Positions 34,056 through 56,938 of a stretch of DNA of 64,000 nt are shown piece by piece. Location: assembly GCA_024398055.1 (NCBI GenBank), contig CP073749.1, positions 4,154,594-4,218,593 of the forward strand, given 5' to 3'. Source of the DNA: a bacterium SCSIO 12741 (GTDB taxonomy: Bacteria; Bacteroidota; Bacteroidia; Flavobacteriales_G; Salibacteraceae). How positions within the stretch are numbered: position 1 is the stretch's first letter; every line of letters starts with the position of its first letter. Below the pieces are notes generated by a model that saw only the letters and a program-made list of their open reading frames with translations, searched no databases and was not told the DNA's origin. The position numbers and the translations under genes are program-made.

Positions 34056-34089
34056 AAGGTGGTTGAATTTTTAATTGAGCATTAGAAAA

Positions 34090-40070: not shown

Positions 40071-40382
40071 TTAGGGGGCTACTACTTCGCCGTCCCAAGT
40101 CATCATACCACCTAACAGGTTAAAGGTGGTAAATCCTTTGCCCGACAGATACTGGCAGGCTTGTCCACTGCGATTCCCACTTCGGCAGTAAACGTAGTAG
40201 TTCTTGTTTCGGTCCCACTTTTCGGTTTCTTCCATAAAGCGTTGACCGTTCATGATATCGAGTTGAATGGCTCCAGGCTGAATTCCCTCAGAGCACTCTC
40301 CAGGAGTTCTAACATCTACGATTACCGCTTGGGAATCGTTGCTCAATTTCTCCTTCCATTCAACAGGTGTAATGTTTTCCAT
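40071..40382 (-). CDS. Rhodanese-domain protein (single domain)
   Basis: From the ATG at 40382 this is 103 residues; the longer frame to 40496 overlaps the previous gene. Rhodanese fold with VIVDVRTPGE and the active-site loop YCRSGNRSGQA carrying the persulfide cysteine. Single-domain rhodaneses move sulfane sulfur between donor and acceptor. It lies 11 bp after the previous rhodanese, and both follow the CstB-like gene, so they probably take up sulfur from persulfides or thiosulfate. Last gene of the cluster. Confidence 0.85.
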   Translation of the reverse strand: MENITPVEWKEKLSNDSQAVIVDVRTPGECSEGIQPGAIQLDIMNGQRFMEETEKWDRNKNYYVYCRSGNRSGQACQYLSGKGFTTFNLLGGMMTWDGEVVAP

Positions 40383-40393
40383 TTCAAACAGTT

Positions 40394-40699
40394 TTAGAGG
40401 TTTCTCAAGGTTTGCCAAGGTCCGGCATTGTAAGCCGTAATTCCTTTCGAAGTCAACATCGATTTCGCTTGTGCAGCTCTGGCTCCCGATCGACATACGA
40501 GGATGACTTCCTTGTTTTTAACCTTTTTCAAATTGGACAGTAGGGTTTGCAAGGGAATGTTGATACTCCCTTTTACATGTCCGGATTTATATTCTTGTGG
40601 CGTTCTAACGTCGACTATAAGGGCCCCATTCTCTACTAGGCCCTTATAGTCAACTCTTCCACCCAATAACAGATCTTTCAGTGTTCCAAATAATCCCAT
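40394..40699 (-). CDS. Rhodanese-domain protein (single domain)
   Basis: A 101-residue rhodanese with LIVDVRTPQEYKSGHV and the catalytic loop VCRSGARAAQ. The cysteine carries the persulfide. 10 bp downstream of the CstB-like gene and 11 bp upstream of a second rhodanese, so the three are co-transcribed. No signal peptide, so it acts in the cytoplasm. The reaction partner is not visible from the sequence. Confidence 0.88.
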   Translation of the reverse strand: MGLFGTLKDLLLGGRVDYKGLVENGALIVDVRTPQEYKSGHVKGSINIPLQTLLSNLKKVKNKEVILVCRSGARAAQAKSMLTSKGITAYNAGPWQTLRNL

Positions 40700-40709
40700 G
40701 GTAGTGAGT

Positions 40710-42122: not shown

Positions 42123-42144
42123 GTGTTATTTTCAAATTACAAGG

Positions 42145-42193
42145 CAAATGTATCGTGGCTCTGTTTCCTGCACAGCGACAAATGTTACACAAG
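42145..42193 (-). promoter_or_regulatory. CstB-like gene promoter: -7 box plus upstream activator-type motif
   Basis: On the minus strand, TACATTTG (42152-42145) fits TAnnTTTG and lies 22 bases before the ATG. The motif CTTGTGTAACATTTGTCGCTG (42193-42173) ends with its core 31 bases upstream of the -7 box. No -33 TTTG is present, so activation by a bound regulator is likely. The same arrangement precedes the stress-protein gene at 49479. Confidence 0.6.
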
Positions 42194-42217
42194 CACTTAG
42201 CAGATGTTAAAACCCGC

Positions 42218-43432
42218 CTATTTTCGGCTTGCGGGCATTCGAAAACGAATGATCAGGGAGGAAATGAGGGTGAGCACACCAATGCTCATGATAGCAAAGC
42301 TAAGGCCAAAGGCATCTGCTATAATTCCGGAAAGCAAAGCACCGATGGCATAGCCCAAATCACGCCAAAGTCTGAATACACCAATGCTCTCCGCTCGTTG
42401 CTGCGCTGAAGTGTATTGAGCTATTGCCGCCAAAAAAGTGGGATAAACCAATGCGGTACCCAAACCCAATAAAACGGAAACAGTGATCAAGGTGGCCATA
42501 GATTGCAAGGATGGAATCAGTAGTATGGCCAAACCTTGCACCAGCATGCCCCAAAAGAGTAAGCTCTTTTTATTAAAGAGGTCGGCCATTTTTCCGGTAA
42601 ACAGCTGCCCTATTCCCCACACGGCTGGATATATGGCCGTAATCAAGCCTACATCATCGGTGGAATAGCTCATAGAAAGCAACCAAATTGGAAGGAGACC
42701 CCAAATCATACCATCGTTTAGGTTATTAACCATTCCAGCCTGGGTAATGGAACTCAAGGCTTTGTCAGAAAAGGTGGTATTGATAAAGACATGATCCAGT
42801 TCTTCCTTGTCGTCTTGGGTGGTTTCGAGCTTTACGTGGTGATGGGTGTCTTTAACCCAAAGAATAGCCAGTAAGAAACCTATTACTGCGATGGCCAATC
42901 CCAGGTAAAAAGGATAGGGAGTTACTCCATATTCATGGGCGATATAGGCAGAAAGAAAAGCAACGAGTCCTACTGCGAGGTAACCAGCAAATTCATTGAG
43001 TCCCATGGCCAAGCCGCGATCCTTCTCTCCTACCAGGTCAATTTTCATCACCACCGTGCTGCTCCAGGCCAATCCTTGACTGGCTCCTAATAGAATGTTG
43101 GCCATAATGATCAGGTACCAATAAGGAGCGCTCATGAGAATGAGCGGTACAGGAATAGCCAAGGCCATACCTATAATTAGGAGGTTTCTTCTCCCCCATT
43201 TATTAGCCAGTTTTCCGGTAAAATAGTTGGCTAATGCCTTGGTTACCCCGAAAGCTATAATGAAGGTAAGAATTGCTGTATGGGACTTAATTCCAAACTC
43301 TGATTCGGCAAATTCCGGAAAGATCGATCGTTCAAGCCCTACCATTCCACCTACAAAGGCATTGACGATAACAAGTAAAGTAAACTGCTTCCAGTTCTCC
43401 TTTAGACCAAGTACAATTTCCGATTTTGTCAT
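42218..43432 (-). CDS. MFS transporter
   Basis: A 404-residue major-facilitator transporter from the ATG at 43432, with about twelve helices. The loop NKWGRRNLLIIGMALA between helices 2 and 3 is the diagnostic MFS motif A, here partly altered. A His/Asp-rich cytosolic loop (VKDTHHHVKLETTQDDKEE) divides the two halves. It lies 34 bp downstream of the porin gene. Position in the sulfur cluster suggests import or export of a sulfur compound, but the sequence gives no substrate. Confidence 0.85.
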   Translation of the reverse strand: MTKSEIVLGLKENWKQFTLLVIVNAFVGGMVGLERSIFPEFAESEFGIKSHTAILTFIIAFGVTKALANYFTGKLANKWGRRNLLIIGMALAIPVPLILMSAPYWYLIIMANILLGASQGLAWSSTVVMKIDLVGEKDRGLAMGLNEFAGYLAVGLVAFLSAYIAHEYGVTPYPFYLGLAIAVIGFLLAILWVKDTHHHVKLETTQDDKEELDHVFINTTFSDKALSSITQAGMVNNLNDGMIWGLLPIWLLSMSYSTDDVGLITAIYPAVWGIGQLFTGKMADLFNKKSLLFWGMLVQGLAILLIPSLQSMATLITVSVLLGLGTALVYPTFLAAIAQYTSAQQRAESIGVFRLWRDLGYAIGALLSGIIADAFGLSFAIMSIGVLTLISSLIIRFRMPASRK

Positions 43433-43466
43433 AGAATTACAGCGAAGCAAAGAAAGGTAATGCCTC

Positions 43467-44837
43467 TTAAAAACGGTAGTTCACCACCAAGTTGTGATTG
43501 AACATATTCACCTTGTTTAATACAAGCTTTGGATTGTCATAGGTATCGCCCAGAGCCCGTTTCCAGGTAGTAAGCCATTCGATGACCAATCCTTTTTTAT
43601 CCGATCGGGTAAAGTAAAATAGATCCAGGTTGAGTTGGTCGTTGGCGGGAAAGGCGTACTTGTTGTTATCGAAGTTCAACGCATCAGGACGGTAATACTG
43701 CCCATATCCGATTTTAGCCACCAGGGCCCCTGCTTTTTTGAAGGTTAATGTTCGTTGTACATCCACCATCCAGGCATGGGTATTGGATACGCCTTCTAAG
43801 CGTTCTCTTTTTTGAAACACAAACAAGAACTCTCTACCCCATTCTCTAGGAAAAAGGAACCGGCCATCATTGGTTACGTAATTGTAATTACCCGAGACTC
43901 TCCATTTTTTGTTCCATTTCAATTCATATTGGGCTCCAATCACGTTGGCTTGGGCATCGTGAACATAGGCCTTAGCCGGATCAGAATTACCGCCCTGATT
44001 CATTTTGGATTGATTCAGGTACTGTGCCGAAACGGTGTGTTTCACTTTAGCCACTTCCTTGGACACATAAGCCTGGATAAATGCGGTGTTGTAAATATTA
44101 TCGACGTAGTAATTCCAGAATTTGGCGCCCACTTTTTTGCCTTTGTATTCGATAGAAGCGATACCCAGACCCATGGACGACAGGGAATTTCGGTACTGAG
44201 CCAAACTGCCATCCGGGTTTCTTCCTTGCGGGTAACTTCCTATGCTTTGCCCTACAGGCATAAAATCTGAAGTGCTTCGGGCTCCGATATGGGTAATCCA
44301 GGCCAGCCGAGCGAAAAGTGTTTTCTTTTTGGATTGGTAATCATACCAAATCCCCTGTTCAAGCGTAGGAATCATTCGACCATCTTCTGGATTTAGAAAA
44401 GGCGTTTTTAATTGAAATCGCCCCACCTGAACAAAATGTCCTTTGAGGCGATAGGATAAATAGGCCTCTCCCAGTAAGGTGATTTCCGTCCGGCTTAAAT
44501 CGTTCACATCAAACAAGCCCGATTCATACCTGCTGTAGCGCCCTGTTGTTGGATCCGTGGCTGTGATGTCGCTAATTTTAAGGTTGGAACTGTGATGCAC
44601 GGCAGCACCAATTTTGAATCCATAAAATGAAGACGTTTCATATTTGAGCTTACCACCTGTGGCCAAGGCATTCCAATCCTTTAAGTCTCCCTCATTGTCG
44701 GTAGCCATAAAGAAGGTTCTCCAATAGCCTGAGGCTTTACCCCCGATCACCGAATGGTATAAAGAGTCCTTTTGCGACCAAGCAGTAAAACCATTGATTA
44801 GGAAAACAAACAGAATGAGATGGCGGAATCGTGTCAT
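43467..44837 (-). CDS. OprD-type outer-membrane porin
   Basis: A 456-residue outer-membrane protein with a signal peptide (LILFVFLINGFTAWSQ) and many amphipathic strands, ending VNMFNHNLVVNYRF with the usual C-terminal aromatic residue. Similar in style to the OprD family of substrate-specific porins. The ATG overlaps the TGA of the TsdA-like gene (ATGA), so translation is coupled. It may admit thiosulfate or another sulfur anion; this is inferred from linkage. Confidence 0.75.
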   Translation of the reverse strand: MTRFRHLILFVFLINGFTAWSQKDSLYHSVIGGKASGYWRTFFMATDNEGDLKDWNALATGGKLKYETSSFYGFKIGAAVHHSSNLKISDITATDPTTGRYSRYESGLFDVNDLSRTEITLLGEAYLSYRLKGHFVQVGRFQLKTPFLNPEDGRMIPTLEQGIWYDYQSKKKTLFARLAWITHIGARSTSDFMPVGQSIGSYPQGRNPDGSLAQYRNSLSSMGLGIASIEYKGKKVGAKFWNYYVDNIYNTAFIQAYVSKEVAKVKHTVSAQYLNQSKMNQGGNSDPAKAYVHDAQANVIGAQYELKWNKKWRVSGNYNYVTNDGRFLFPREWGREFLFVFQKRERLEGVSNTHAWMVDVQRTLTFKKAGALVAKIGYGQYYRPDALNFDNNKYAFPANDQLNLDLFYFTRSDKKGLVIEWLTTWKRALGDTYDNPKLVLNKVNMFNHNLVVNYRF

Positions 44838-45931
44838 TTGGATTTCTTCAGGTTAAAGTTCTTTTCATGGTAGGCCATGATTTCTGGAAAAGGACCATAT
44901 TGGTGCTGCTCCTGGCTAAAATGATCCGGAAATGGGCCATAGGGCGTGGATACCGGCTTTTGCTTCAAATCAGGAAAGTCTTTTTCAAGTCCACTCTTTT
45001 TGGGGTGCTTTAAGCTGTTGATATAACCCGCTAAGTCATAAGCTTCTTCATCCGATAAGATGGGATTCTCTGAAGTAGCCCCGAGTGGCATGTTAGCCTT
45101 TAGGAACCGAGCTGCCGTTAGCACCCGATGCATTCCTGCCCCATTGTTGTAGGTGTCATCACCGGCAAGAGGTGGAAAACTGTATTGGTTCTCACCGGAG
45201 GAAACTCCCTGGCCCTCTGAACCATGGCAAGAAGCACACTTCTGGGCAAATAGATCCTTACCCTTATGAAGGTCCACTTTACGGTTGGGAATTTTTACTT
45301 CGGCAAATCCACGGCCCTGGACCGAAACAGTGGAAGGAACATCCTTGCTCAGCCACTCCATATAGGCTACTATGGCTTTTAACTCTTTACTTTCAGGCGG
45401 AAATTTCCGTCCATTCATACTCCGCTCCATACAGCCATTAACTCGCTGATGCAAGTCAGCCACCTGGTCTTCTCGACTCATGTATTTGGGATAGCGATTG
45501 GCTATTCCCACAAAAGGAGCGGCATGTGGTTTTGTTCCTCCATCCAAATGGCAGTTTTTGCAAGACAGATTGTTGCCTGCATAAACCTTCGTTGGATCGG
45601 GATTTGCTGGACCAATGAATGAACTCGTATTCATTACGATATCGTGTCCATATCGGATTAATGCATCTGCTCCGTTATGCCCCAAGCCATCAATCGAAAA
45701 ATTGGCATCAAAAGCAGGAAACGGACTTTCTTTTTTATTAGGAGTTTGGCTCGTCATTTTCTTATCAGACCCTGGTTCCGGTTCTGATTCCAGTGTAACT
45801 TGCTGACTGAAATAGGCGAGCAAAGCCAGGTTTCCGGCCGCCAGAATAACGATAATCTTGACCAAGGCAATCACCTTGCCGGTCATTTTCAGAACGAGCT
45901 TCTCCTCTGTTGTTTGTGTGTTATTTTCCAT
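44834..45931 (-). CDS. TsdA-like dihaem cytochrome c (thiosulfate dehydrogenase type)
   Basis: A 365-residue protein with an N-terminal membrane anchor (IVILAAGNLALLAYF) and two haem sites, CKNCH near residue 124 and CASCH near 232. Between them, NGCMERSMNG supplies the cysteine that serves as axial haem ligand in TsdA. TsdA interconverts thiosulfate and tetrathionate in the periplasm. The start lies 10 bp after the SulP stop; the stop overlaps the porin start. Function as a thiosulfate dehydrogenase is likely, though the direction of the reaction cannot be read. Confidence 0.85.
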   Translation of the reverse strand: MENNTQTTEEKLVLKMTGKVIALVKIIVILAAGNLALLAYFSQQVTLESEPEPGSDKKMTSQTPNKKESPFPAFDANFSIDGLGHNGADALIRYGHDIVMNTSSFIGPANPDPTKVYAGNNLSCKNCHLDGGTKPHAAPFVGIANRYPKYMSREDQVADLHQRVNGCMERSMNGRKFPPESKELKAIVAYMEWLSKDVPSTVSVQGRGFAEVKIPNRKVDLHKGKDLFAQKCASCHGSEGQGVSSGENQYSFPPLAGDDTYNNGAGMHRVLTAARFLKANMPLGATSENPILSDEEAYDLAGYINSLKHPKKSGLEKDFPDLKQKPVSTPYGPFPDHFSQEQHQYGPFPEIMAYHEKNFNLKKSK

Positions 45932-45941
45932 TTCATGGGGT

Positions 45942-47105
45942 TTATGCGGTTTCTAATGAAATGGGTGGAAGATCAGAATGCTTTAGATTTTCCAGGGCCT
46001 CTGGAAGATTCCTAAAGGTTTGGAATCCGTCTAAGTCATACATTCCGGAATGGGCGAATATATCTCTCACCGGGCCAATGGCTCCGGTCATGATCAACCT
46101 TTGGTTTTGTGCTCTAAGGTCTTTGACCAACTGCTTCAGCATTTCTAAAGAGGTAGAATCAATGTAGTTAATGGTACCAGCATCAATTAATACCGCTTGA
46201 AGATCATCTCCTTTATGTCGGGCTTTTTCGAGCAGATTTTCTTTGAAGTAGTTGGCATTGGCGAAATAGAGTTGCGAATCGAATCGCATGATAAGGAAAC
46301 GAGGGTCCTGCTCTACTTCTTCAAAACGATCAATGTTTTTGTAAAGTGGACTTCCAGGCATTTTCCCCAATACCGCAAAGTGAGGCTTTACGGTGCGATA
46401 GACCAATAAAACCAGAGACACCAGCACACCTAATAAGATCCCTTCTTTAATGCCCACGGTAAGGGTGATCAGAAAGGTAAAAATCAAAAGACCGAATTCA
46501 TCCTTTCGGGTTTTCCAGAGAGATACTGGATACTTAAAATCAATCAATCCAAAAACAGCCACCATAATAATGGAAGCGAGAATCGCCTTAGGCAAGTAGT
46601 AAAATAAGGGGGTAAAGAATAACAAAGTCAATCCTACCACCACCGCACTAATAACAGCCGCAACTCCTGTTTTAGCACCAGCTTGGTCATTGACCGCAGT
46701 TCGCGAAAAACCACCAGTGGTAGGATAGGATTGAAAAAAGGATCCTACAATATTGGATGTGCCTAAGGCAATGAGCTCTTGGTTTGCATCCACTTTGTAT
46801 TCGGTATGTTTTTGTTCCACCGCTTTAGCCACTGAAATGGCCTCCATAAAGGCGATAAGCGCTAAAGTCATGGCAATGGGAATGAGCTCGGATAAATGCT
46901 CGGTGTCGAGCAAAGGCATGCTAAAAACGGGAAAGCCTGTAGGAATCTCCCCTACAATCCCCACTCCTACTTCGGTAAGATTCAAGAAACTAACGGACAC
47001 GGTTCCCAGAATAACGACCAATAAAGCTGCTGGGACTTTTGGTGCATATTTTTTGGTGAGCTTAATCACAGCGATGCCCCCAATCCGATAACCAGGGTTA
47101 GCCAA
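45942..47105 (-). CDS. SulP-family anion permease, C-terminal part (frameshifted)
   Basis: This frame begins in the middle of a SulP protein and is open from 47105, although its first codons (NPGYRIGG) are a frameshift artefact. It contains the later membrane helices and a C-terminal cytoplasmic STAS domain (VLIDAGTINYIDSTSLEMLKQLV). It joins the frame at 47066-47638: adding one base to the C5 run at 47077-47081 gives IHWLTLVIGLGGIAVIKLTKKY. SulP proteins move sulfate and other anions across the inner membrane. Confidence 0.85.
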   Translation of the reverse strand: MANPGYRIGGIAVIKLTKKYAPKVPAALLVVILGTVSVSFLNLTEVGVGIVGEIPTGFPVFSMPLLDTEHLSELIPIAMTLALIAFMEAISVAKAVEQKHTEYKVDANQELIALGTSNIVGSFFQSYPTTGGFSRTAVNDQAGAKTGVAAVISAVVVGLTLLFFTPLFYYLPKAILASIIMVAVFGLIDFKYPVSLWKTRKDEFGLLIFTFLITLTVGIKEGILLGVLVSLVLLVYRTVKPHFAVLGKMPGSPLYKNIDRFEEVEQDPRFLIMRFDSQLYFANANYFKENLLEKARHKGDDLQAVLIDAGTINYIDSTSLEMLKQLVKDLRAQNQRLIMTGAIGPVRDIFAHSGMYDLDGFQTFRNLPEALENLKHSDLPPISLETA

Positions 47106-47638
47106 TGGATCTGGTCCAATTTCAGAATCGCGTCATATAGTAAGAGATGAATCTGGTTGTTTCGTTCAATATCGGCTCCCAACAGGTGCTTCAATTGATT
47201 TAAACCAATTATGAGGGCAGCCGCAGAAGTAAATCCGCTAATCACAGGCTTGGATAGAAAATTAACCAGGAAGCCGAGCTTAAACAATCCCATGGCCAAT
47301 TGAAGGACTCCCATCATAAAAGCCAGAGTAATGGCCAAGAGAATGTAGTTTTCAGAACCTGCTGCGGCAATAACGGTCAATCCGCTCGCCACCAAAAGAG
47401 AATCCATAGCCACAGGTCCCACGGCCAGCTGGCGAGAAGTACCCAGTATGGCGTAGATAATTTGAGGAATCAATGCGGCATACAGTCCGTAAACGGGCGG
47501 TAATCCGGCAATCATAGCATAGGCCATCCCTTGTGGGATGAGCATGATACCTACGGTTAACCCCGCCGGTAAATCGCCCTGAAACTGGGCCTTTCCGTAA
47601 CCCTTGATCCAGGATAGTATGGGAAGAAATCGATTCAT
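47066..47638 (-). CDS. SulP-family anion permease, N-terminal part (frameshifted)
   Basis: The first 190 residues of a SulP transporter: the signature PQGMAYAMIAGLPPVYGLYAALIP near residue 34 and helices up to IHWLTLVIGLG, after which the frame stops (ASL). The rest is encoded by 45942-47105. The ATG at 47638 is one base after the stop of the YeeE-like gene 47640. With the extra base the full protein is about 565 residues, a normal SulP length. Confidence 0.88.
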   Translation of the reverse strand: MNRFLPILSWIKGYGKAQFQGDLPAGLTVGIMLIPQGMAYAMIAGLPPVYGLYAALIPQIIYAILGTSRQLAVGPVAMDSLLVASGLTVIAAAGSENYILLAITLAFMMGVLQLAMGLFKLGFLVNFLSKPVISGFTSAAALIIGLNQLKHLLGADIERNNQIHLLLYDAILKLDQIHWLTLVIGLGASL

Positions 47639-47639
47639 C

Positions 47640-48053
47640 TTAATGGGGTAATCGGTTTTTGATTATGCCATAAAGAAGGGTCCCCAATAAGGCAAAGGCG
47701 ATAACAATCAAAATGCTTAATGCTCCAGCCCCAACCAAAACATACATCGGCCCTGGACAAGCTCCTGCCAGAGCCCAACCCAGTCCAAAGATGATTCCTC
47801 CAAAAAGGTAACGTGGGATGCTTTTGTTTTTAGGAGCAAAAGAGATCGGAATGCCCGATACGCTCTTGAGGTTCGATTTTTTGATCAGAAACACAATCAG
47901 CATTCCCAAGCTGACTGCCGTGCCGATAATACCGTACATGTGAAACGATTCGAAACGGAACATCTCATAGATTCGAAACCAGGACACGGCCTGAGATTTA
48001 AACATGATCACTCCGAAAAGAACGCCTATTAGTGTATATCTTAAATATCTCAT
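47640..48053 (-). CDS. YeeE/YedE-type membrane transporter, shorter half
   Basis: A 137-residue membrane protein with the conserved motif FGLGWALAGACPGP, the cysteine-bearing signature of the YeeE/YedE (TsuA, thiosulfate uptake) family. It has about four helices and matches the second half of the larger family members; the gene just upstream (48078) encodes the other half with its own cysteine, GGCTSGHA. The two probably form one transporter. 24 bp separate them. Confidence 0.85.
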   Translation of the reverse strand: MRYLRYTLIGVLFGVIMFKSQAVSWFRIYEMFRFESFHMYGIIGTAVSLGMLIVFLIKKSNLKSVSGIPISFAPKNKSIPRYLFGGIIFGLGWALAGACPGPMYVLVGAGALSILIVIAFALLGTLLYGIIKNRLPH

Positions 48054-48077
48054 TGTGATGCGATAAGAGTTCTTTGA

Positions 48078-48635
48078 TTAAAGGATTACAGGTAACAATA
48101 AATGGGTCATTATAAGGCCGCCTACGAAGAAGCCAATAACAGCTACCAACGAAGGCCACTGGAGGTTACTCAGTCCGCTAATGGCGTGTCCTGAAGTACA
48201 TCCACCAGCGTAGCGAGCACCAAAACCAACCAATAGTCCACCGATGGCCAAAATCAAAAAGCCTTTTAAGCTCAATACGGCGTCCCATCCGTAAAGCTCA
48301 GCTGGCACATATTGACTGCCTGGTGTATTGAATCCGAGTTCCCGCAGGGATTCAATGGTGGTAGGATTTAGATCGATGGTTTGATCAGGAGTTAAGAAAG
48401 TGTGGGCCAGAAAGCCTCCAACCATGGCTCCCAAAACAACCATAAGGTTCCAGCGCTGAGACTTCCAGTCAAACTTGAAAAAATCGGCGACGGCCCCTGC
48501 TCCACCCATCGAACATACCGTTCGAAGATTGGATGACATACCAAAGTTTTTTCCCTCGTAGATCAAAAGAAACATGACCAGCGTGATCAATGGGCCCGAG
48601 ACATACCAGGGCCAGGGATTCAAAATAAAATCCAT
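48078..48635 (-). CDS. YeeE/YedE-type membrane transporter, longer half
   Basis: From the ATG at 48635 this is 185 residues. Membrane helices and the family motif GFGARYAGGCTSGHAISGLS near residue 140. The family moves thiosulfate or related sulfur species through a cysteine relay. It lies 13 bp after the stress-protein gene. Together with the following short YeeE gene this is the usual two-gene Bacteroidota arrangement. Confidence 0.85.
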   Translation of the reverse strand: MDFILNPWPWYVSGPLITLVMFLLIYEGKNFGMSSNLRTVCSMGGAGAVADFFKFDWKSQRWNLMVVLGAMVGGFLAHTFLTPDQTIDLNPTTIESLRELGFNTPGSQYVPAELYGWDAVLSLKGFLILAIGGLLVGFGARYAGGCTSGHAISGLSNLQWPSLVAVIGFFVGGLIMTHLLLPVIL

Positions 48636-48648
48636 GTGATGCGAATAA

Positions 48649-49479
48649 TTAGTAAATAAAGAGTGGCGCAAAAACGTGATTAGCCACTGCGGTTTTTAAA
48701 TCTTTGGGGTAAATCCAGGAAAGGGAATCACGGTGCAGCTCAGAAACCACAATCATCTGAAGGTTATCCTCCAAAAGATGCTGGGTCAATTTGCTTTCGT
48801 CACTTCCACTCTCGTTGAGCACATGAAGCACTACTCGTTTGAGTTCATTATCCTGGGCAAACTTTTCCATCCGCTTCCGATAGGTTTCAGCATCCGCTCC
48901 ACCAGAACCATGCATAATCTTGTAAAGATGAACCTCCGCTCCGAAGGCATCGGCCATTATTCGAACCTGGCGCACATTCTTGGAATGGTCTTCTTCGAAA
49001 TCATCAAATAGGCCTATTCGCTCAATGGTATGATCACCCGAACGATCACATTTCAGGCTCAATACTGGAATGTCAACCGATTTAATCATCCTTTCCAAAG
49101 TGGTATTGATGAAGAAGTCCTCATAGAACTTAGTTGGATGAGCACCCATAAATAGAGCGTCAAAGTTTTCGTTTCGGAGCTTGTAAGCCACAATCTTATC
49201 CAACTGACCGATCAGCACAGAAACCTTCTTTATCACCGGGCTCTTAGAATAGGCTTGAGACTTTTCTCGAGCCTTCGCCTGTTGGGCGTATAGCTGGGAT
49301 AAATCGATATCAGAACAATAATCGGTAATGGAGCCGTCGTCCTTTAAAGGCACTTCGGAATAGGAACTAACCACGTGGAGTAATTCTACTTCCAGGGGTT
49401 CTTTTTCATGGATACGCTCTGCAAACTGATTCACGTACGAATCGGTCTCAGAGAACTTAGTAAGCATAAGTACTTTCAT
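48649..49479 (-). CDS. Universal stress protein (two UspA-like halves)
   Basis: A 276-residue cytoplasmic protein with tandem UspA-like domains. The first starts MKVLMLTKFSETDSYVNQFAERI and ends near LSLKCDRS; the second starts with HTIERIGLFDDFEEDHSKNV and ends near VFAPLFIY. UspA proteins respond to stress and often bind ATP; a clear glycine-rich ATP loop is not visible here. First gene of the block of transporters after the regulator, with its own promoter in the 111-bp gap upstream. Confidence 0.8.
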   Translation of the reverse strand: MKVLMLTKFSETDSYVNQFAERIHEKEPLEVELLHVVSSYSEVPLKDDGSITDYCSDIDLSQLYAQQAKAREKSQAYSKSPVIKKVSVLIGQLDKIVAYKLRNENFDALFMGAHPTKFYEDFFINTTLERMIKSVDIPVLSLKCDRSGDHTIERIGLFDDFEEDHSKNVRQVRIMADAFGAEVHLYKIMHGSGGADAETYRKRMEKFAQDNELKRVVLHVLNESGSDESKLTQHLLEDNLQMIVVSELHRDSLSWIYPKDLKTAVANHVFAPLFIY

Positions 49480-49519
49480 CTGATCTGAAATAAATGGAGA
49501 ATGTTCCCGAATTCAGATG

Positions 49520-49568
49520 CAAATGGACAAAACTCAGCTGGCTTTATCAGCTACTTAGGTTACACAAG
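49520..49568 (-). promoter_or_regulatory. Stress-protein gene promoter: -7 box plus upstream activator-type motif
   Basis: On the minus strand the motif CTTGTGTAACCTAAGTAGCTG (49568-49548) shares 17 of 21 positions with the one upstream of the CstB-like gene. Its CTTGTGTAAC core lies 31 bases upstream of TCCATTTG (49527-49520), a one-mismatch -7 box; the CstB-like promoter has the same 31-base spacing. Confidence 0.55.
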
Positions 49569-49590
49569 TGGCCGGAGGGCCCAGTATTAC

Positions 49591-50226
49591 TTAGAAATGC
49601 AATACCTCTACCTTGTTGCGGTGAAGTTTGATTTCACCTTCTTTTTCCAGTTTTTTAAGTAATCTGGATACGACAACCCGACTGGTGTTTAGCTCGTAAG
49701 CAATTTTCTGATGGGTTAATGATAACTCGGCTGTAGAGTTGATCATTACACTATTCTTCAGGTATTTGGTCAGGCGCTCTTGAAGGTTTAGAAAGGCCAG
49801 GTCGTCGATGGCTTCGAGCATTTCGTTTAAACGGTTGTTGTAGCTTTCAAATACAAAATCGCGCCAAGATTTATACGTCAACCACTCCTCCATTTTGCTG
49901 GTAGGTACCACGAGCAATTTAACCTCCGTTTCAGCCACGGCCTTGATGTTGCTCTTCTTGTGATTTACGCAGCAAGTGAGGGTCATCGCACAAGTGTCTC
50001 CCGGTTCTAAATAATACAACAACACCTCATTACCATCATCATCTGCCTTGAGGATTTTGATGGCTCCTTCTAGCATGATGGGCATATTTTTGAGGTAATC
50101 TCCTATGTCGATTAATACTTCATCGCGTTTTACCTCTTTATAGGTGCCACAGGCATCCATATCATTGAGCAGCTCTTGCTCGAAAAGGTAACTAAAACGC
50201 TGTTGGAGTATTTCTTTCATGCTCAT
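49591..50226 (-). CDS. Crp/Fnr-family transcriptional regulator
   Basis: About 211 residues from the ATG at 50226 (or 50220; the frame extends to 50253). An N-terminal cyclic-nucleotide-binding-type barrel (VLIDIGDYLKNMPIMLEGAIKIL) and a C-terminal HTH (LTHQKIAYELNTSRVVVSRLLKKLEKEG). Cysteines in MTLTCCVNHKKSN and at the N-terminal CGTYKEV could sense redox or sulfur species, but no classic Fnr Fe-S pattern is visible. As the upstream gene of the sulfur cluster it is the candidate regulator of the two matching promoters. Confidence 0.88.
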   Translation of the reverse strand: MSMKEILQQRFSYLFEQELLNDMDACGTYKEVKRDEVLIDIGDYLKNMPIMLEGAIKILKADDDGNEVLLYYLEPGDTCAMTLTCCVNHKKSNIKAVAETEVKLLVVPTSKMEEWLTYKSWRDFVFESYNNRLNEMLEAIDDLAFLNLQERLTKYLKNSVMINSTAELSLTHQKIAYELNTSRVVVSRLLKKLEKEGEIKLHRNKVEVLHF

Positions 50227-50412
50227 AGGAAAAATGTTTGAATGCTTCGGCAAAATTAGGAAATAACGGCTGGTATGGAATGAATGGATTCACAGTAAAC
50301 CTCCACAACGGAGTAGAAAAGGAAGAGTCGTTTAACTCCAAATTTTAACTACTTGAGAATCAAAAATAATCCTCCGATATGGAGGGTAAAAAAGAAATAT
50401 CGTTTGTTAGGC

Positions 50413-51103: not shown

Positions 51104-51403
51104 TTAACACAGACCGTTGTCTATTGCAAACCGGACTAGGCCGGTGGCGTTGTTTACGGGGAGCTTGGCGATTAGTTTTTTTCGATGTGTTTTAACGGTA
51201 TGTTCGGATATGAAAAGTGATTCTGCAATTTCAGCGGTTGTTTTGCCCTTGCATATTTCTTGAAGAACATCCAGTTCCCTTTCGGTTAGTGAGTAGCGGG
51301 AAGATTGTTCCGTTTCGGAAGGAGTGTTAAGCCTATGAAGCAGTGATTCGGCAGCCTCTGGCGACATGAATACTTTTCCTTCTGCCACTTCTCTTACGGC
51401 CAA
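51104..51403 (-). CDS. LuxR-type response regulator, C-terminal half (frameshifted)
   Basis: This frame contains the end of the receiver domain and the LuxR-type HTH (LTERELDVLQEICKGKTTAEIAESL). It is the downstream half of the gene starting at 51747. Adding one base at the C3 run 51448-51450 gives NSGAHGYVLKTAAGSKILKLAVREVAEGKV, a perfect receiver C-terminus. With it, the full protein is about 214 residues. Confidence 0.88.
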   Translation of the reverse strand: MAVREVAEGKVFMSPEAAESLLHRLNTPSETEQSSRYSLTERELDVLQEICKGKTTAEIAESLFISEHTVKTHRKKLIAKLPVNNATGLVRFAIDNGLC

Positions 51404-51405: not shown

Positions 51406-51747
51406 TTAGGATTTTGCTGCCAGCAGTTTTGAGGACATAGCCATGTGCCCAGAGTTTAAGGCGGTTTGAATAAACTCACTTTCGGGATGAGTAGACAAGA
51501 TGAGAATTCGGATATGAGGATGCTTTTCTTTCAATTTGCGAGCGATTTCCAGCCCATTTTCACCGGGTAACTGAATATCAAGAAGTATCAAATTCGGACT
51601 CACCCGATTGAGTAACCTAAAAAGGGATTTGGAATCTGAGGCCTCACCGATGCAGTTTAGATCCTTCTCTTCCTCCAGCAGTGCCTTAAGGCCTTCCCTA
51701 AAAACCTGGTGATCGTCCACCAGGACTATTTGAATCCTATCATTCAT
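51406..51747 (-). CDS. LuxR-type response regulator, N-terminal half (frameshifted)
   Basis: The receiver domain up to ALNSG, with the phosphoacceptor Asp in LILLDIQLPGENG; after that the frame is wrong (HMAMSSKLLAAKS). The ATG overlaps the stop of the sensor kinase gene by 8 bp, so the two are one operon. The DNA-binding half continues in 51104-51403. Confidence 0.88.
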   Translation of the reverse strand: MNDRIQIVLVDDHQVFREGLKALLEEEKDLNCIGEASDSKSLFRLLNRVSPNLILLDIQLPGENGLEIARKLKEKHPHIRILILSTHPESEFIQTALNSGHMAMSSKLLAAKS

Positions 51748-53713
51748 CGTTTTTCACTTGTTTTAGGGGAATTCTAAGGCGTACCTCTACCCCATTTCCA
51801 GGTTCACTTTTAAGGGTTAGTGTTCCATTTAACACTTGTGTTCTTGAGCGAATATTGGTTAATCCGATTCCACTTTCCGGATCGTCTTGGTCAAATCCTT
51901 TTCCATTGTCCTTGATCTCCAGAATCACTTCCTTCTCTTTTTGAATCAAGGTAAGCTTGATGAAACTGGCCTGGGCATGTTTGATCACATTGGTAGTCAA
52001 TTCTTGAATAATTCGAAACAGCGAAGTCTCCAAGTTTTTTTCCAGCGGTTTTTCCCAACCCGCAGTGATCAATTGAACCTTAATTTTCCCCGATGATTCT
52101 AAAGCATCACAGAGGTTTTCAACCGCTTTAACAAATCCAAATTGATTGAGCACTCCCGATTGCATATTGTGAGAGATGCGCCTCACCTCGGAGGTAGTTT
52201 CATCGAGGAGGTAATCCATTTTGGTCAATACTTCATCCGGCATTTGAGGATGTTTTTCCAATCGGTCATGCAATCGGTCGTATTGGAGGCGCAGTGTCGC
52301 CAGCAAGTTTCCCAAACTATCGTGGAGTTCAGAAGCCATTCGTTTACGTTCCTTTTCTTGCCCATTGAGCATGGCCCGGGCCCCATTGAGTGAAATCTCC
52401 TGATCTTTTTTGAGGAGTCGTTCTTCATCCAATCGGATACGGGTTTGTTGCCTTTGATAAAACAGCCAAAATGCTATTCCTGAAATTAGGAGCAAAAGCC
52501 CCAAGGATGCACCAATAAGCGCCATGAGGTGGTTTTCCTTCCTCTGTTGGGCATTTCTTTGAGCAGCCAATTCGAGGTCCTTCCTGCTCTTTTGCAATTC
52601 AAACTCCGATTCTAATTCGGCCTTTTGTTGATTTTTTTCTAACGTAAATAGAGAATCGCGTACCTCGGTATAGCGCCTCATAAGCTCAAAGGCATATTCA
52701 GATTCATTTTGTTGGTGATAGAATTCGGCAATTTGAGGCAACAATTCCCGAATGAGCCAGGCCAGGTTATTGGCTTCGGCCAGTTCTATCGCTTGCTCAA
52801 AACAAGATTTTGCGGAATCCATTTGCTTCTTTAGTTCATAATTGCGGCCAAGATTGAACCAGGTTTCCATTTGAGCTCCGGGTAATTCAAGCTTTTGGTA
52901 ATTGCTCAATGCGATCCGAAATTGACGTTCTGCGTTTCCCAAATCGCCAAGTTCCTGATATACATTCCCCTTATTGATCGCATGCATAGCTTCCTTTTGA
53001 AGGCTGCCTTCCTCATGCCAGTATGCACTTGCCAATTCCAGAAAGTAAATGGCACTGTCTAATTGATTGCGGTAATAGTAGTAATTAGACATGTTGGTTT
53101 GCAGTTCAGCTAAATGCGGTTGAAATTTTCCACGTTCGGCTATCTCAAGGCCCTTTTGGAAATAGTTTTTCGCCATTTCCCATTCTTTAGCTTCAAGCTG
53201 AAACAATCCATATCCATTATAGGCCCGGGCCAGGTGCAAACTATCTCCGTGATTTTCCAAATAAGTAAGCACGGCTACCCACTCCTTCATGCCTTCTGAA
53301 AACTCTCGCAACATCCGGTAGCACAGGGCTATTTGCTGTCGCACATTGGTTGCTCCCAAACTATCACCTTGTTGGTAGCGTAGGTTCGCACAATGGCGAA
53401 AGTGATTCAAGGCCTCCTCCACTCGGTCAAACCGTAAGGAAAGTGTCCCCAACCGGGATTCAGCATCAGCCAATCCTTTGGTGTATTTGTGTTTTTCGGA
53501 TAAGACCAAGGCCCAATTCGCATAGTCGAGCCCTTTTTGTGGTTCATCATTGCGGCTCTTCCACGCCCATTCGTTTAAGGTATCTACACGTTGATCAATT
53601 TGTGAGGGGAAGTGCTGGAGCGAAAGGACACTATCTCGAATATCCTTCTGCAAGGCATAAGCCTGAAGAAAAACCAAGAGTATAATAAGGGTGGCTGACA
53701 GCTTTCGCTTCAT
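51740..53713 (-). CDS. TPR-containing sensor histidine kinase
   Basis: A 657-residue kinase. A signal peptide (LSATLIILLVFLQAYALQ) leads to TPR units from residues 70 to 345 in the periplasm. A membrane helix follows near residue 395 (LMALIGASLGLLLLISGIAFWLF), then a HisKA_3 box (ASELHDSLGNLLATL) and an HATPase domain (IQELTTNVIKHAQASF ... DNGKGFDQ). The TPR segment likely senses a periplasmic protein. The cognate regulator overlaps at the 3' end. Confidence 0.9.
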   Translation of the reverse strand: MKRKLSATLIILLVFLQAYALQKDIRDSVLSLQHFPSQIDQRVDTLNEWAWKSRNDEPQKGLDYANWALVLSEKHKYTKGLADAESRLGTLSLRFDRVEEALNHFRHCANLRYQQGDSLGATNVRQQIALCYRMLREFSEGMKEWVAVLTYLENHGDSLHLARAYNGYGLFQLEAKEWEMAKNYFQKGLEIAERGKFQPHLAELQTNMSNYYYYRNQLDSAIYFLELASAYWHEEGSLQKEAMHAINKGNVYQELGDLGNAERQFRIALSNYQKLELPGAQMETWFNLGRNYELKKQMDSAKSCFEQAIELAEANNLAWLIRELLPQIAEFYHQQNESEYAFELMRRYTEVRDSLFTLEKNQQKAELESEFELQKSRKDLELAAQRNAQQRKENHLMALIGASLGLLLLISGIAFWLFYQRQQTRIRLDEERLLKKDQEISLNGARAMLNGQEKERKRMASELHDSLGNLLATLRLQYDRLHDRLEKHPQMPDEVLTKMDYLLDETTSEVRRISHNMQSGVLNQFGFVKAVENLCDALESSGKIKVQLITAGWEKPLEKNLETSLFRIIQELTTNVIKHAQASFIKLTLIQKEKEVILEIKDNGKGFDQDDPESGIGLTNIRSRTQVLNGTLTLKSEPGNGVEVRLRIPLKQVKNDE

Positions 53714-53740: not shown

Positions 53741-54490
53741 TCAGTGAGTAGCGCAGCCCTTAAAGGGTAAGGATGATTTCCAATCGGATTCTTCCATAAA
53801 AAACCAGGAAGTGGGTTTAACGTCGGAGTTTGCTTCTCTTAGTTTTCCCTTACCCTTGGGATTGCCATCATGAATACTGGTAATAACCACTTTATCATCT
53901 TCTTCTGAATCATTGGTTCCAATGGTCTCCTCCAATTGATCATGGGCATAGTCTCCTGAACTTCCTGGGGTGCTTAAGGTAATGTCTGCGTCGTATTCAT
54001 AGAGATCTTCAGAGGTATTAGCCAAGGTCAATTGAACCGATTCCTGCTTGGTGTCATCCCAAATCATCACACTGATGTGATGGTGAGTTTCGGATTGAAT
54101 TTTGGTCAGGTAGCAATGAGGAGACAAAGAACTGATCGGCTGGTCATCCATGTCATCGTAGTTTAAGATCACATAATGCTGATCCTCCCATTCAGAATTG
54201 CCCGCTTCTTTTGTACGGACGATGATTTGAACTTCCAATTCATGGGAAGAGTTTTTGGAGTAATCGTCTGAGAAAACCACTCTGTTTTCAGTGAGTCCCT
54301 GGGGATCCTCTACCAATTCCAAGTAAATGATTCTTCGGATTTCCGGAGAGGTCGGAAAAACAATTTTAGCGTCATAATTGTACTTCTTAGCCGGATCTAA
54401 TGGTACTATGACCTGCAAATTCATCAAAGCTGAAGAAGATTCCTGGGTAATGTACCCATGTGGTCGAAGATATTTTTCAAAACTTGCCAT
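53741..54490 (-). CDS. Hypothetical protein, third gene of the protease operon
   Basis: A 249-residue protein without signal peptide or membrane segments. It appears beta-rich (MNLQVIVPLDPAKKYNYDAKIVF, LEVQIIVRTKEAG, HHISVMIWDD), with an acidic, Ser/Gly-rich stretch near residues 170-205 and the ending FKGCATH. No known domain. The ATG lies 2 bp after the stop of the serine protease gene, so the two are translated together; it may be a chaperone, inhibitor or partner of the two proteases. Confidence 0.6.
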   Translation of the reverse strand: MASFEKYLRPHGYITQESSSALMNLQVIVPLDPAKKYNYDAKIVFPTSPEIRRIIYLELVEDPQGLTENRVVFSDDYSKNSSHELEVQIIVRTKEAGNSEWEDQHYVILNYDDMDDQPISSLSPHCYLTKIQSETHHHISVMIWDDTKQESVQLTLANTSEDLYEYDADITLSTPGSSGDYAHDQLEETIGTNDSEEDDKVVITSIHDGNPKGKGKLREANSDVKPTSWFFMEESDWKSSLPFKGCATH

Positions 54491-54492
54491 AA

Positions 54493-55656
54493 CTAATTAA
54501 TTTCGATCTTCAATTTTTTGATTTCTTCATTTATCGCATCCATGCGCTGAACCTTTTCAATGGCCTTTTTTCTAAAGCTATTAGCAGGGTTGTTAGGGTC
54601 TCTGGAAATCACGCACCCCACTTCGGTATATTGCGTAAAGTCGCGCTGCCCACCAACCAGAATTCCAGTTAAATGAAAGTTTCTGGCTGAAAATACGGGC
54701 GCACCGGAATCTCCTTGAAATGCATCGAGGTTCGATTCGTATAAGTCTTTAGTAAGCATGCGCTGAACCTTGGCTTCGTCGGAGTATTTCATGGGCAGGC
54801 CCAATCCATGACCAAGCATGTACAAGGGTTGTCCTTTTTGGGCGGCTGGAGCGTGTCGATTGATGGTTTTGAGATCATACCAAGGTACATCTTTGTATAA
54901 TTCAATCAGGGCAAAGTCCTGGGTAAAGTTGTAACGGATAAGTCGAACTTCCTTGGCCCAAAAAACTTCCTCTGCCTTATGGTAGCGAGTTTTAGCCTCT
55001 GTGTGCAAACTTCTATTTTCGTTTGTATGCCGGTAGTTGAATACAAACCGATAATCATTCAGAATATCCTTATCCTTCAGCCGTTTTCCATTATTATAAA
55101 ATAGATGGCCAGCCGTTAGAATGGTTCTTTTTCCAATTAGCACCCCAGTAGCGCATTTAAAACTGGGTTGATCGGCAAAGCGTTCCTGACGGCAAATAAC
55201 TCGTTTGCCACCACCCTGTCGATCATAACGTTGTTCGAGATTAGTGGAGGGAAGCATCAAATGAGACTGGCCGTTTCTGTCATGTTTGGGTGCACGCATA
55301 ACGGCACAAACCTGTAAGGATTGTTTCATAATCTTTTGGATGACCTCTCTGGGTTTGCGCCTGAAAGTATAGTTGCCCATTTGGTATTTATTGTCCCAGA
55401 AGGCAAGATCTTCTATAGAATGAATATCTACGCGATTGTCTTTTTTGTTCAGGCTTTGAACCAGCTGTCGACTGGCTATACTTCCCAATAAGGCAGTGTA
55501 TTGGTGCAGAATCGCTGGATTGGTCGTTTGAAATAACCTTAACATATCCTCTGCCGCATTTTTACCTCGCGGCCGATCAGAGGACACAGCTTTACTTAAG
55601 TTTTCCACCTTGTCTTGAAAACTTTGGTGAAATGACATTAAATCAGAATTTCCCAT
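54493..55656 (-). CDS. Trypsin-like serine protease
   Basis: A 387-residue protein from the ATG at 55656. The protease triad is visible: His in RTILTAGHLFYN, Asp in DFALIELYKD, Ser in FQGDSGAPVFS. The N-terminal ~100 residues are helical without known domain. No signal peptide. Middle gene of a three-gene operon: a papain-like protease gene 78 bp upstream and a gene of unknown function 2 bp downstream. Confidence 0.8.
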   Translation of the reverse strand: MGNSDLMSFHQSFQDKVENLSKAVSSDRPRGKNAAEDMLRLFQTTNPAILHQYTALLGSIASRQLVQSLNKKDNRVDIHSIEDLAFWDNKYQMGNYTFRRKPREVIQKIMKQSLQVCAVMRAPKHDRNGQSHLMLPSTNLEQRYDRQGGGKRVICRQERFADQPSFKCATGVLIGKRTILTAGHLFYNNGKRLKDKDILNDYRFVFNYRHTNENRSLHTEAKTRYHKAEEVFWAKEVRLIRYNFTQDFALIELYKDVPWYDLKTINRHAPAAQKGQPLYMLGHGLGLPMKYSDEAKVQRMLTKDLYESNLDAFQGDSGAPVFSARNFHLTGILVGGQRDFTQYTEVGCVISRDPNNPANSFRKKAIEKVQRMDAINEEIKKLKIEIN

Positions 55657-55734
55657 GTTACAGTTCTTTTGAATAAAGATCAAGGAAATCAACAAGCCTT
55701 AGACTTCTTGCTGATTTCCTCTTTCATTTATGGT

Positions 55735-56652
55735 TTAAACACGAGCCCCAATGGTTCTGAGGTCCATATATTCCATTTGGTACATGGTCCACCAATCTCG
55801 GGTAAGCCCCTTGAGAACATAGTCGTATGGCAACCAGCCAAAACCGTCATCTCCCCAACCGGTTCCCCAGGAGTTTTGAAACAAAATGGCTCCTTTGGAA
55901 ATCATGCCATGCCCGTTGTCGATCTCGATGTTGTCATCGTAACCTACGGCAAGAACCGCATGTCCACCTCGACGACGATCTCGAGCGTGTGGAAATGGAA
56001 CCTTCCCAGTTGTTCTCGAGCGACTAATAGAACGATAAACAGAAAAGCCAAATACCATTGGAATCTTAAAGTTAACCATGGTTTTAACGGCACTGAGTAG
56101 TCGAGCTCCCTGGCGGTTGGAGTGATCGATACGAGCATAGCGCAACGCTTGAAAACTCTGTCCGAAAGAATAACAAAACGCAGAGGGTTCCACATCAAAC
56201 TGACCAATTCGATAGGGCCAATAAGTCTCGGGAGGCATGCCAAAAATGGCCAGGGCTCCAATAGTACTGCGATTGGTAGCACCCGTATCTCCGGTAAGTC
56301 CCATAAGGTTCCGAGTGGTTTTGTAGACAAACAGACGGGAGCCGTCGACAAACTCTCCATGTTTTTTGTTTTCCATGAACTCATAAAGACTCACAGCTGC
56401 CTGTGCCGTACAAGATCCCAGTGAACCTTGATTCATAACGGGTGAACAAAACGCTTTCATGTGAGACGCGCTCGGCAGGGTTAACTGAGAAAAGAAGCCA
56501 TCGTTATCCAAAACATCGGCATCTTGGTAGTGTTTGACCATTTCAGTATAACGGTCATCTTTAATTTGTTGCTCATCAGGATCTCCTAAAATGAAATCTC
56601 TAATGTCCGGTGCTTCTGGCGTCCAGCCAGAAAGATTGAATTCAGTTTCCAT
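55735..56652 (-). CDS. Papain-family (C1) cysteine protease
   Basis: A 305-residue protein. Catalytic Cys with its preceding Gln in VMNQGSLGSCTAQAA near residue 83, His in RGGHAVLAVGYDD near residue 230, Asn in FQNSWGTGWGDDGF near residue 262, the full set for C1A enzymes. No signal peptide, and only a short N-terminal stretch (residues 1-70) in place of a normal propeptide. It is the first gene of the protease operon. The absence of a signal suggests an intracellular function or export by an unconventional route. Confidence 0.85.
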   Translation of the reverse strand: METEFNLSGWTPEAPDIRDFILGDPDEQQIKDDRYTEMVKHYQDADVLDNDGFFSQLTLPSASHMKAFCSPVMNQGSLGSCTAQAAVSLYEFMENKKHGEFVDGSRLFVYKTTRNLMGLTGDTGATNRSTIGALAIFGMPPETYWPYRIGQFDVEPSAFCYSFGQSFQALRYARIDHSNRQGARLLSAVKTMVNFKIPMVFGFSVYRSISRSRTTGKVPFPHARDRRRGGHAVLAVGYDDNIEIDNGHGMISKGAILFQNSWGTGWGDDGFGWLPYDYVLKGLTRDWWTMYQMEYMDLRTIGARV

Positions 56653-56938
56653 GTTCTATTTTTTATAGGGTTTACAATAAGTTTCATATCCCGCCTTGAT
56701 GGCAACGGCGTTTAATTCAAAAGGGTAATGCATAGAAATAAGTTTAAATGTTTGCCCAAAATTCCTAATAGACAGCTCTTTAAGACTCACTCTTAGAACG
56801 TATATCGGTCCTCTTTTAGGGGTAAATGCCATCCCCTAAAGAGGGAGGTCGTCTAATGGATGAGTGCTTGAGAATGGCAACCAGGTCAGAGTAAAGGATT
56901 TGTTTATATTTATAAAGATCAACCCATTACCTAAACGA

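Follow-up and report, generated by a model that had tools for sequence, protein, structure and literature searches.

The operon described here lies in a stretch of 64,000 nucleotides, referred to below as the window, on contig CP073749.1 (positions 4,154,594 to 4,218,593) of the Bacteroidota bacterium SCSIO 12741 (Salibacteraceae). Its genes are read from the minus strand in the order papain-like cysteine protease, trypsin-like serine protease, a small protein of 249 amino acids (aa), a sensor histidine kinase with tetratricopeptide repeats (TPRs) and a LuxR-type response regulator (Table 1). The papain-like and trypsin-like genes are separated by 78 bp, the trypsin-like gene and the gene of the small protein by 2 bp, and the latter and the kinase gene by 27 bp; the end of the kinase gene and the open reading frame (ORF) of the receiver domain overlap by 8 bp. 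The original prediction had noted the 2 bp spacing and had treated the two proteases and their small partner as a unit. The spacing is as described and the three genes do belong to one unit, but the operon runs on into the TPR kinase and the LuxR-type regulator.

The proteases and the small protein

The papain-like protein matches Pfam Peptidase_C1 (E 9.8e-11) and the PDB entry 3ois, which we take to be xylellain (E 2.8e-29, residues 72-290 aligned to 69-286). It contains Cys81, the His of GGHAVLAVGYDD and the Asn of QNSWGTGWG, and by sequence it is a xylellain-type C1A peptidase with a papain fold and a Cys-His-Asn active site. The trypsin-like protein matches Pfam Trypsin (E 2.2e-10) and Trypsin_2 (E 1.3e-9) and carries the His-Asp-Ser triad in the motifs TAGH, QDFALIEL (Asp) and GDSGAP; its N-terminal ~165 aa are without a Pfam match, and the protein is without a PDB relative at E 0.01. 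Two proteases of different classes with complete active sites are thus present, as had been proposed.

The absence of signal peptides also holds. By a hydrophobicity rule there is no N-terminal signal in either protease or in the 249-aa protein, and an alternative TTG start of the trypsin-like ORF at 55695, giving 400 aa, adds only LLISLIFI before QKN, which was not taken as a signal peptide. More doubtful is the earlier view that there are no obvious propeptides. Cys81 sits 56 residues further in than the catalytic cysteine of papain, which we assume to be numbered Cys25, and the N-terminal extension of 3ois is of similar length to that of the window protein; this extension of ~56 residues before the papain core may act as a prosegment. 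The further statement that such enzymes are normally exported is too strong, because intracellular prokaryotic C1A peptidases are described as lacking signal peptides in the part of PMC10380794 that deals with them. Viral relatives were sought for the papain-like and the 249-aa protein, and none was confirmed.

For the 249-aa protein the best Pfam match has an E value of 0.04, and no NCBIfam, PADLOC or PDB match was found at E 1. Its first half resembles the C-terminal half of a small protein from another genome (BLASTP 28% over 116 aa, E 8e-6, a single comparison), and both of its halves close with similar acidic tails, NYDDMDDQP and REANSDVKP. Because of the half-to-half resemblance and the like tails, the protein probably consists of two similar domains. 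An AlphaFold2 model contains strands only, besides short helical turns, and is poor, with a predicted local distance difference test score (pLDDT) of 41. A likeness to bacterial gasdermins was found by neither Pfam nor PADLOC, and the model was too poor for a fold search.

The kinase starts with an N-terminal hydrophobic signal by the same rule, followed by TPRs, a transmembrane (TM) segment recognised by eye, and HisKA_3 and HATPase_c domains assigned by Pfam. The inverted repeat upstream of the operon occurs as a single copy in the genome within 3 mismatches; naming it as a candidate operator of the operon is only a guess.

Table 1. Features of the window operon, and proteases found upstream of surveyed TPR kinases, by class.
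Feature	Position or loci	Strand	Length and basis
Papain-family (C1A, xylellain-like) cysteine protease	55735..56652	-	305 aa; Pfam, PDB match
Trypsin-like serine protease	54493..55656 (from ATG)	-	387 aa; Pfam
Small protein	53741..54490	-	249 aa; without family match
TPR sensor histidine kinase	51740..53713	-	657 aa; Pfam, hydrophobicity, TM by eye
Response-regulator receiver domain	51406..51747	-	Pfam Response_reg 5.2e-22
LuxR/GerE DNA-binding part, same regulator, other frame	51104..51403	-	Pfam GerE 1.3e-20
Inverted repeat CCTCTTTTAGGG/CCCCTAAAGAGG	56810..56844	no strand	divergent region upstream of operon
Upstream trypsin	L088, L093, L099, L108, L119, L120, L127, L155		
Upstream subtilisin	L089, L105, L122, L157, L163		
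Upstream caspase	L164		
Upstream HExxH-type metalloprotease	L098, L104, L112, L143		motif
Upstream papain-like	L158		by eye

A recurrent architecture and its proteases

Relatives of the trio formed by the two proteases and the small protein were counted in genomes of the same family, order and class, with the genome of SCSIO 12741 included in every tally; in what follows L-numbers denote loci and G-numbers genomes. The 249-aa protein has matches in 1/35 family genomes, that is, in its own genome only. Relatives of the trypsin-like protein occur in 3/35 family genomes at 1e-3, 2/42 order genomes at 1e-8 and 5/395 class genomes at 1e-9, and those of the papain-like protein in 47/395 class genomes at 1e-8. 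The match to 3ois makes the latter protein like the xylellain-type peptidases, but this likeness does not extend to the gene neighbourhood: a trypsin or a TPR kinase was absent from all eight neighbourhoods of papain-like relatives inspected, one of which (L080) has a two-component set without TPRs nearby.

Relatives of the trypsin-like protein are found in the order protease, small protein(s), TPR kinase(s), regulator in G004 (at two loci), G030, where the trypsin is a lipoprotein by eye, and G242. The genome of SCSIO 12741 itself has further examples. At L043:8840-10652 a TPR kinase spread over three ORFs lies behind a 137-aa small protein and a protein that is caspase-like by eye, without a Pfam or PADLOC match; L045:611-7768 holds a 132-aa small protein, a TPR kinase and a regulator, then a caspase, a CD-NTase (PADLOC 4e-136) and a SAVED-peptidase effector (1e-101) in a CBASS-like set; and a third TPR kinase lies behind a 110-aa small protein. 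The TPR kinase paralogues at L041 and L042 are without such neighbours. What is conserved is the architecture protease, small protein, TPR kinase, regulator, and not the trio. The three-gene order envisaged earlier was found in no other genome among those searched, but a protease and a small protein do stand together elsewhere.

Two further groupings of proteases were noted. L084:1677-8703 is by eye another operon of several hydrolases: in one run lie a papain-like protease and a subtilisin-like protein, both signal-less, together with a membrane protein and a lipase-like protein. Secreted trypsins lie beside caspases in G227 and G324 (L012, L013), with no TPR kinase in the stretch inspected, and were set aside.

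We then have a broader survey, in which genome contigs were searched with a pattern alignment of four cassette-bearing kinases and the best 80 of 306 matches were kept. Three of these loci (L088, L093, L096) are those of three rows of the seeding alignment, and the sample leans to cassette loci because the search was seeded with kinases of such loci. A co-directional gene lies within 300 bp upstream of the kinase, at position -1, in 62/80 loci, and no more than 10 of the 62 match a Pfam family at 0.01, the families having been assigned to the proteins by reading the list. Among 48 genes at position -2, Pfam at 0.001 gives Trypsin_2 in 5, S8 in 4 and C14 in 1.

Peptidase motifs (trypsin, subtilisin, caspase and metalloprotease) are concentrated in these two positions: they occur in 15 of 103 genes at -1/-2 and in 7 of the 849 remaining ORFs (odds ratio 20.5, p 1.1e-10). 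The comparison counts regular-expression motif matches only, with genes of at least 100 aa at -1/-2 and the other ORFs taken from the same loci; it missed L088, L099, L157 and L158, recognised by Pfam or by eye, as well as L096 (a gap) and L118 (a caspase by PADLOC). Four of the seven off-position ORFs are caspases 0.6-3 kb downstream of the regulator in Aquimarina-like genomes. The others are, in L144, a gene with a trypsin motif that immediately follows the regulator, a metalloprotease-motif gene in L139 that overlaps the kinase start and lies behind a 152-aa protein, and an unrelated ORF in L160. Counting the Pfam and by-eye additions L088, L099, L157 and L158, an upstream protease is present in 19/80 loci (Table 1). 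Among these, the metalloprotease calls at L098, L104, L112 and L143, like that at L139, rest on an HExxH-type motif, and L098 is without a Pfam match; the proteases of L112 and L143 look secreted by eye, contrary to the hydrophobicity rule. For L108 the Trypsin_2 match, at 0.0038, does not pass the cut-off of the family. The papain-like protease of L158 has no Pfam or PADLOC match and no BLAST similarity to the papain-like protein of the window.

The small proteins are mostly 100-280 aa long. By the hydrophobicity rule 44/53 small -1 proteins and 16/19 upstream proteases are without an N-terminal signal, and 72/80 kinases have an N-terminal hydrophobic segment and a TM segment before the kinase domain, which places the TPR part outside.

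Some of the surveyed loci have additional genes. L118:4750-12677 is a tandem of small protein, TPR kinase, regulator, caspase (PADLOC 4.5e-18), second small protein, kinase and regulator. In the Aquimarina-like locus L087:10048-15148 a caspase and a TIR/SpbK-like protein (SpbK 7.6e-34) lie downstream of the TPR kinase and regulator; similar downstream genes were recognised by eye in L090, L095 and L097, the profile match having been run for L087 only. A protein of 267-287 aa precedes the caspase in three of these four loci, and L097 has an intervening minus-strand ORF. At L144:6353-10662 the small protein before the TPR kinase belongs to a subtilisin-associated family, in the same locus as the trypsin-motif gene that follows the regulator.

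Exchange of sensor halves, operator and small-protein tails

A maximum-likelihood tree was built from 86 rows of the kinase part, with some long branches flagged and the bootstrap not settled. In it the kinases of L163, L119 and L164, which accompany a subtilisin, a trypsin and a caspase respectively, form a short-branched, well supported Dokdonia group; L158, with its papain-like protease, stands next to this group with weak support. In Polaribacter/Tenacibaculum, kinases that go with a trypsin, with a subtilisin or with no protease are mixed among one another. Across the three Dokdonia loci the kinase domains are 87-91% identical, the regulators 83-91% and the TPR halves 15-22% (two alignments). 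The shift in identity along the kinase is abrupt near the TM segment: for L163/L119 the values per 50 residues run 18-16-12-20-16-20-66-98-92-90-90-85, with 83% for the regulator. More generally, where kinases are at least 80% identical and the small proteins differ, TPR identity is mostly 14-33% (Polaribacter/Tenacibaculum, Dokdonia), and at several small-protein types, not all, a common type goes with TPR identity of 50-72%.

Co-variation was measured on 21 Polaribacter/Tenacibaculum loci (210 pairs), with small proteins taken as similar at a Z score of 5 or more. Kinase identity averages 75.5% (62-90) and TPR identity 26.8% (14-72), with an r of 0.05 between the two. TPR identity of at least 40% is found in 14 of the 31 pairs with similar small proteins as against 7 of the 179 others, and the partial r between small protein and TPR, given kinase identity, is 0.63 (p 2e-4, 5000 permutations). 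From these counts and those for the subtilisin-associated family given below, the link between small protein and sensor is type-dependent, being strong in the GGGVIVxGP-tailed, trypsin-associated and TDPI-tailed types and absent in the subtilisin-associated family.

The same boundary is seen in the DNA. In blastn comparisons of L102/L133, L128/L145 and L138/L127 both flanks align at ~80-90%, the alignment starting again from inside the kinase gene, and the cassette and sensor half are unaligned; for L132/L138, which have one small-protein type, the alignment runs through the sensor half. In the group of metalloprotease loci the kinases are 82-87% and the sensors 15-27% identical. Two pairs without a recognisable cassette keep their sensors, with kinase and sensor identities of 80% and 79% in Parapedobacter and 74% and 62% for L148/L154. 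In the Aquimarina loci that have caspases downstream, sensor divergence goes along with kinase divergence (r 0.81 over 6 pairs, with sensors 35-60% identical). Kinase/sensor identities for other loci are 94/56 in Roseivirga (L106/L126) and 62/55 for L130/L135, both with small -1 proteins on each side, 84/24 for L113/L117 and 48-57/21-23 for L116/L123/L149. The exchange pattern is thus seen, with exceptions, in the Flavobacteriaceae relatives of the window kinase.

Before the cassette there is a palindrome, TACCTAYTTRTAGGTA, which is present within 2 mismatches in 19/19 Polaribacter/Tenacibaculum intergenic regions, exactly in 12 and within one mismatch in 17 (shuffles expect 0.01). L120 has it with 1 mismatch, bringing the total to 20/20 cassettes measured. 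The site lies between a conserved upstream neighbour and the cassette, and exact copies number 0-3 per genome in 12 whole genomes, with 0 for a reversed control. Its form resembles what we take to be the 7-2-7 inverted heptamers of NarL-type regulators. In 3/12 genomes an exact copy is found at the start of a secreted-protein gene near yebC-like or acetate-kinase-like genes (by eye).

In the GGGVI-tailed small proteins (n=7), 7/11 invariant columns fall in the last 13 residues, and in a model of such a protein (pLDDT 74.6) the tail is a good-confidence strand behind a low-confidence stretch. TDPI, followed four residues later by a Pro, is found near the C-terminus of all of a set of four small proteins that go with TPR halves 45-64% identical, although some of these proteins have bodies with hardly any likeness. 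Another family of eight members has pairwise Z scores of 4.6-30, except for L158/L163 (Z 1.5-1.7), the L158 protein resembling the other six and not L163 directly; against four members of other types the scores are 4.1 or less. These eight proteins accompany a subtilisin (L122, L157, L163), a caspase (L164), a protease that is papain-like by eye (L158) or no upstream protease (L113, L145, L150). A model of the Polaribacter L132 small protein (pLDDT 74.6) gave no significant match in Foldseek (best E 0.21), and its VIA-align matches to Bacteroides NigD-like and other putative lipoproteins, at Z 4.6 and below, were not taken as kinship.

Elsewhere in the window, positions 31953-34428 hold a second two-component set, without TPRs, made up of a 112-aa protein (...DFAQPCPPTC...), a 221-aa membrane protein, a kinase and a LuxR-like regulator (by eye). 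Similar sets occur at L080:7680-10063, beside a papain-like gene, and at L011:12147-15019. Positions 40071-50253 contain, on one strand, rhodanese, MBL-fold, MFS, porin-like, SulP-like, YeeE-like, cytochrome-like, UspA-like and Crp/Fnr-like genes, a run that by eye resembles a sulfur or persulfide cluster.

Possible roles of the operon

The interpretation that we prefer starts from the observed gene order and its recurrence, the enrichment of proteases, the change of protease and sensor on near-identical kinases, and the conserved operator. By analogy with known loci, the window would carry one version of a polymorphic signalling operon, a reading that we hold tentatively and at a little under an even chance. 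The small protein would be the cognate ligand of the TPR sensor domain, or the precursor of that ligand, and bind to the domain, the protease would mature or release it, and the regulator would switch on its own operon through the palindromic operator, the window version working in the same way as those of Flavobacteriaceae. Candidate routes by which a signal-less protein could reach a periplasmic TPR domain are lysis of kin, contact or an unknown exporter. In relatives the kinase, regulator and operator stay fixed and the protease, small protein and TPR half change as a set, so that every version would specify a signalling type of its own. A wider proposal, which is possible and about which we are more hesitant, is that these operons form a widespread self-recognition system of Bacteroidota, with a mostly signal-less folded small protein as ligand of a periplasmic TPR kinase, a protease of any class that would cleave it, and whole types swapped by recombination before an unchanged kinase, regulator and operator, in which the signal would report the presence of kin, possibly lysed.

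In Firmicutes, signalling types are defined in this way by comQ-comX-comP(N-terminus) and agrB-agrD-agrC(N-terminus). The agrBDCA locus of staphylococci has the order protease, precursor, kinase, regulator, with B, D and the sensor part of C variable and the kinase and A conserved; its peptidase, AgrB, is a membrane protein and its precursor, AgrD, a short peptide, whereas the proteases described here are mostly soluble-looking and of several unrelated classes. The comQXPA locus of Bacillus resembles the window operon in its order of enzyme, signal precursor, kinase and regulator on one strand, and in having HisKA_3 (PF07730) and HATPase_c in the kinase and GerE (PF00196) in the regulator. It differs in that ComQ is an isoprenyl transferase and not a protease, ComX is a pre-peptide, and ComP senses by a multi-TM domain, unlike the TPRs of the window kinase. 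The order itself is found in the window, where the small protein would take the place of the precursor, and the protease is optional in relatives. Neither a ComQ-type isoprenyl transferase nor an AgrB peptidase with a short precursor was found among the products of the operon, which by Pfam are members of the papain and trypsin families accompanied by the 249-aa protein. Since the defining enzyme and peptide were looked for and are absent, we file the operon as pherotype-like and not as a member of comQXPA or agr. In the sections of PMC4008528 that treat comQXPA, the precursor is the most variable part, the sensor half is variable compared with the conserved cytoplasmic kinase part, and the census gives no locus outside Firmicutes.

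Several points count against the signalling interpretation. Known ligands of this kind are short peptides, and it is not obvious that ligand and receptor would share a compartment, since the small proteins are mostly signal-less and the TPR part lies outside. Most of the 80 loci are without a recognised protease. The reading frame of the window regulator is interrupted between its receiver domain and its DNA-binding part, so that the gene is frame-broken; this split regulator and the other broken TPR kinase of the same genome are either pseudogenes or indel errors of the assembly. There is also no close relative of the window kinase at hand in which exchange could be seen. Among the pairs with similar small proteins, 17/31 have TPR identity below 40%, including the pairs with L102 and all six pairs of the subtilisin-associated family in the Polaribacter/Tenacibaculum clade, which lie at 22-27%; the sensors of L110/L147 are 55% identical and their small proteins are alike only in the tail. 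L136/L161, two loci of the metalloprotease group in which no cassette is visible, have a kinase identity of 87% and a sensor identity of 18%; a co-directional upstream gene was found for neither, L136 extending only ~1 kb upstream. The control without cassettes consists of two pairs only, and in one of them L154 does carry a -1 gene, of 205 aa, that looks different. Finally, co-variation is also expected from linkage alone, provided that the segment moves as a block.

If the segment between operator and kinase is simply a recombination-prone hot spot that collects linked cargo, with the TPR domain sensing an unrelated environmental signal, block exchange with linkage is enough to account for the co-variation, and the unlike sensors of 17/31 pairs fit this as well. 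We nevertheless consider it quite improbable: the cargo is non-random, with peptidases enriched and at most 10/62 -1 genes matching Pfam, and loci with sensors of the same type share the short C-terminal tail motif of their small proteins despite unlike bodies. A reading along the lines first offered, which takes the proteases as secreted or toxic and the third protein as their inhibitor, chaperone or targeting factor, agrees with the 2-bp spacing and with the lack of signal peptides in all three proteins by the hydrophobicity rule. It appears very unlikely, and an inhibitor in particular is disfavoured, because small proteins persist at many loci without a recognised protease and one family of them occurs with subtilisin, caspase or none.

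The main rival, which we also hold to be unlikely, is a two-component-controlled conflict module, in which the TPR kinase would sense attack or damage and induce cytoplasmic proteolytic effectors. The small protein would be an effector partner, adaptor or target, and an arms race with phages, predators or competitors would diversify the parts. We retain it on account of neighbours of the CBASS-like and TIR kind and of published conflict systems that employ such peptidases: in SCSIO 12741 itself a small protein, TPR kinase and regulator are followed by the caspase, CD-NTase and SAVED-peptidase of L045, L087 has its caspase and TIR protein downstream of the regulator (L090, L095 and L097 being similar by eye), and trypsin and caspase peptidases figure in the conflict systems treated in parts of PMC7159879 and PMC8195603. 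Proteases and small proteins that are mostly signal-less would also suit action inside the cell. On the other hand, the protease is the dispensable part and the small proteins stay, an effector arms race alone leaves the co-exchanged sensor half unaccounted for, and the trio, the three proteins scanned, gives only weak matches to defence models (trypsin domain LmuA 8e-5, PDC-M35A 0.002). Peptidase-centred conflict systems, in the portions of Kaur et al. (2020/2021) concerned with them, likewise combine small partners, Trypco1/2 among them, with trypsin/caspase domains that can replace one another, but are built around vWA-MoxR/iSTAND and similar components, and the 2020 paper, in the part on vWA-associated effectors, reports no histidine kinase domains among them. 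A VMAP/Trypco system was rejected for the window, where Pfam gave no Trypco, vWA, MoxR or iSTAND match in the seven proteins scanned. Pfam includes Trypco models. The module of the window may have a role in defence, its relatives lying near caspase and CBASS-like genes and near caspase and TIR genes.

The locus class was not found in print in the open-licence literature of PubMed Central, subscription papers and preprints being outside this scope. As far as we know, type-defining loci with a co-exchanged precursor, enzyme and receptor half have been described for Gram-positive bacteria. If the signalling-operon reading is right, it would explain why unrelated proteases and orphan small proteins lie beside TPR kinases, and would be a further system, one whose single protease position can be taken by any of several unrelated classes. 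The operon would then be a Bacteroidota equivalent of such type-defining loci, and so would offer a way into cell-to-cell recognition in a phylum of major importance in the sea and the gut.

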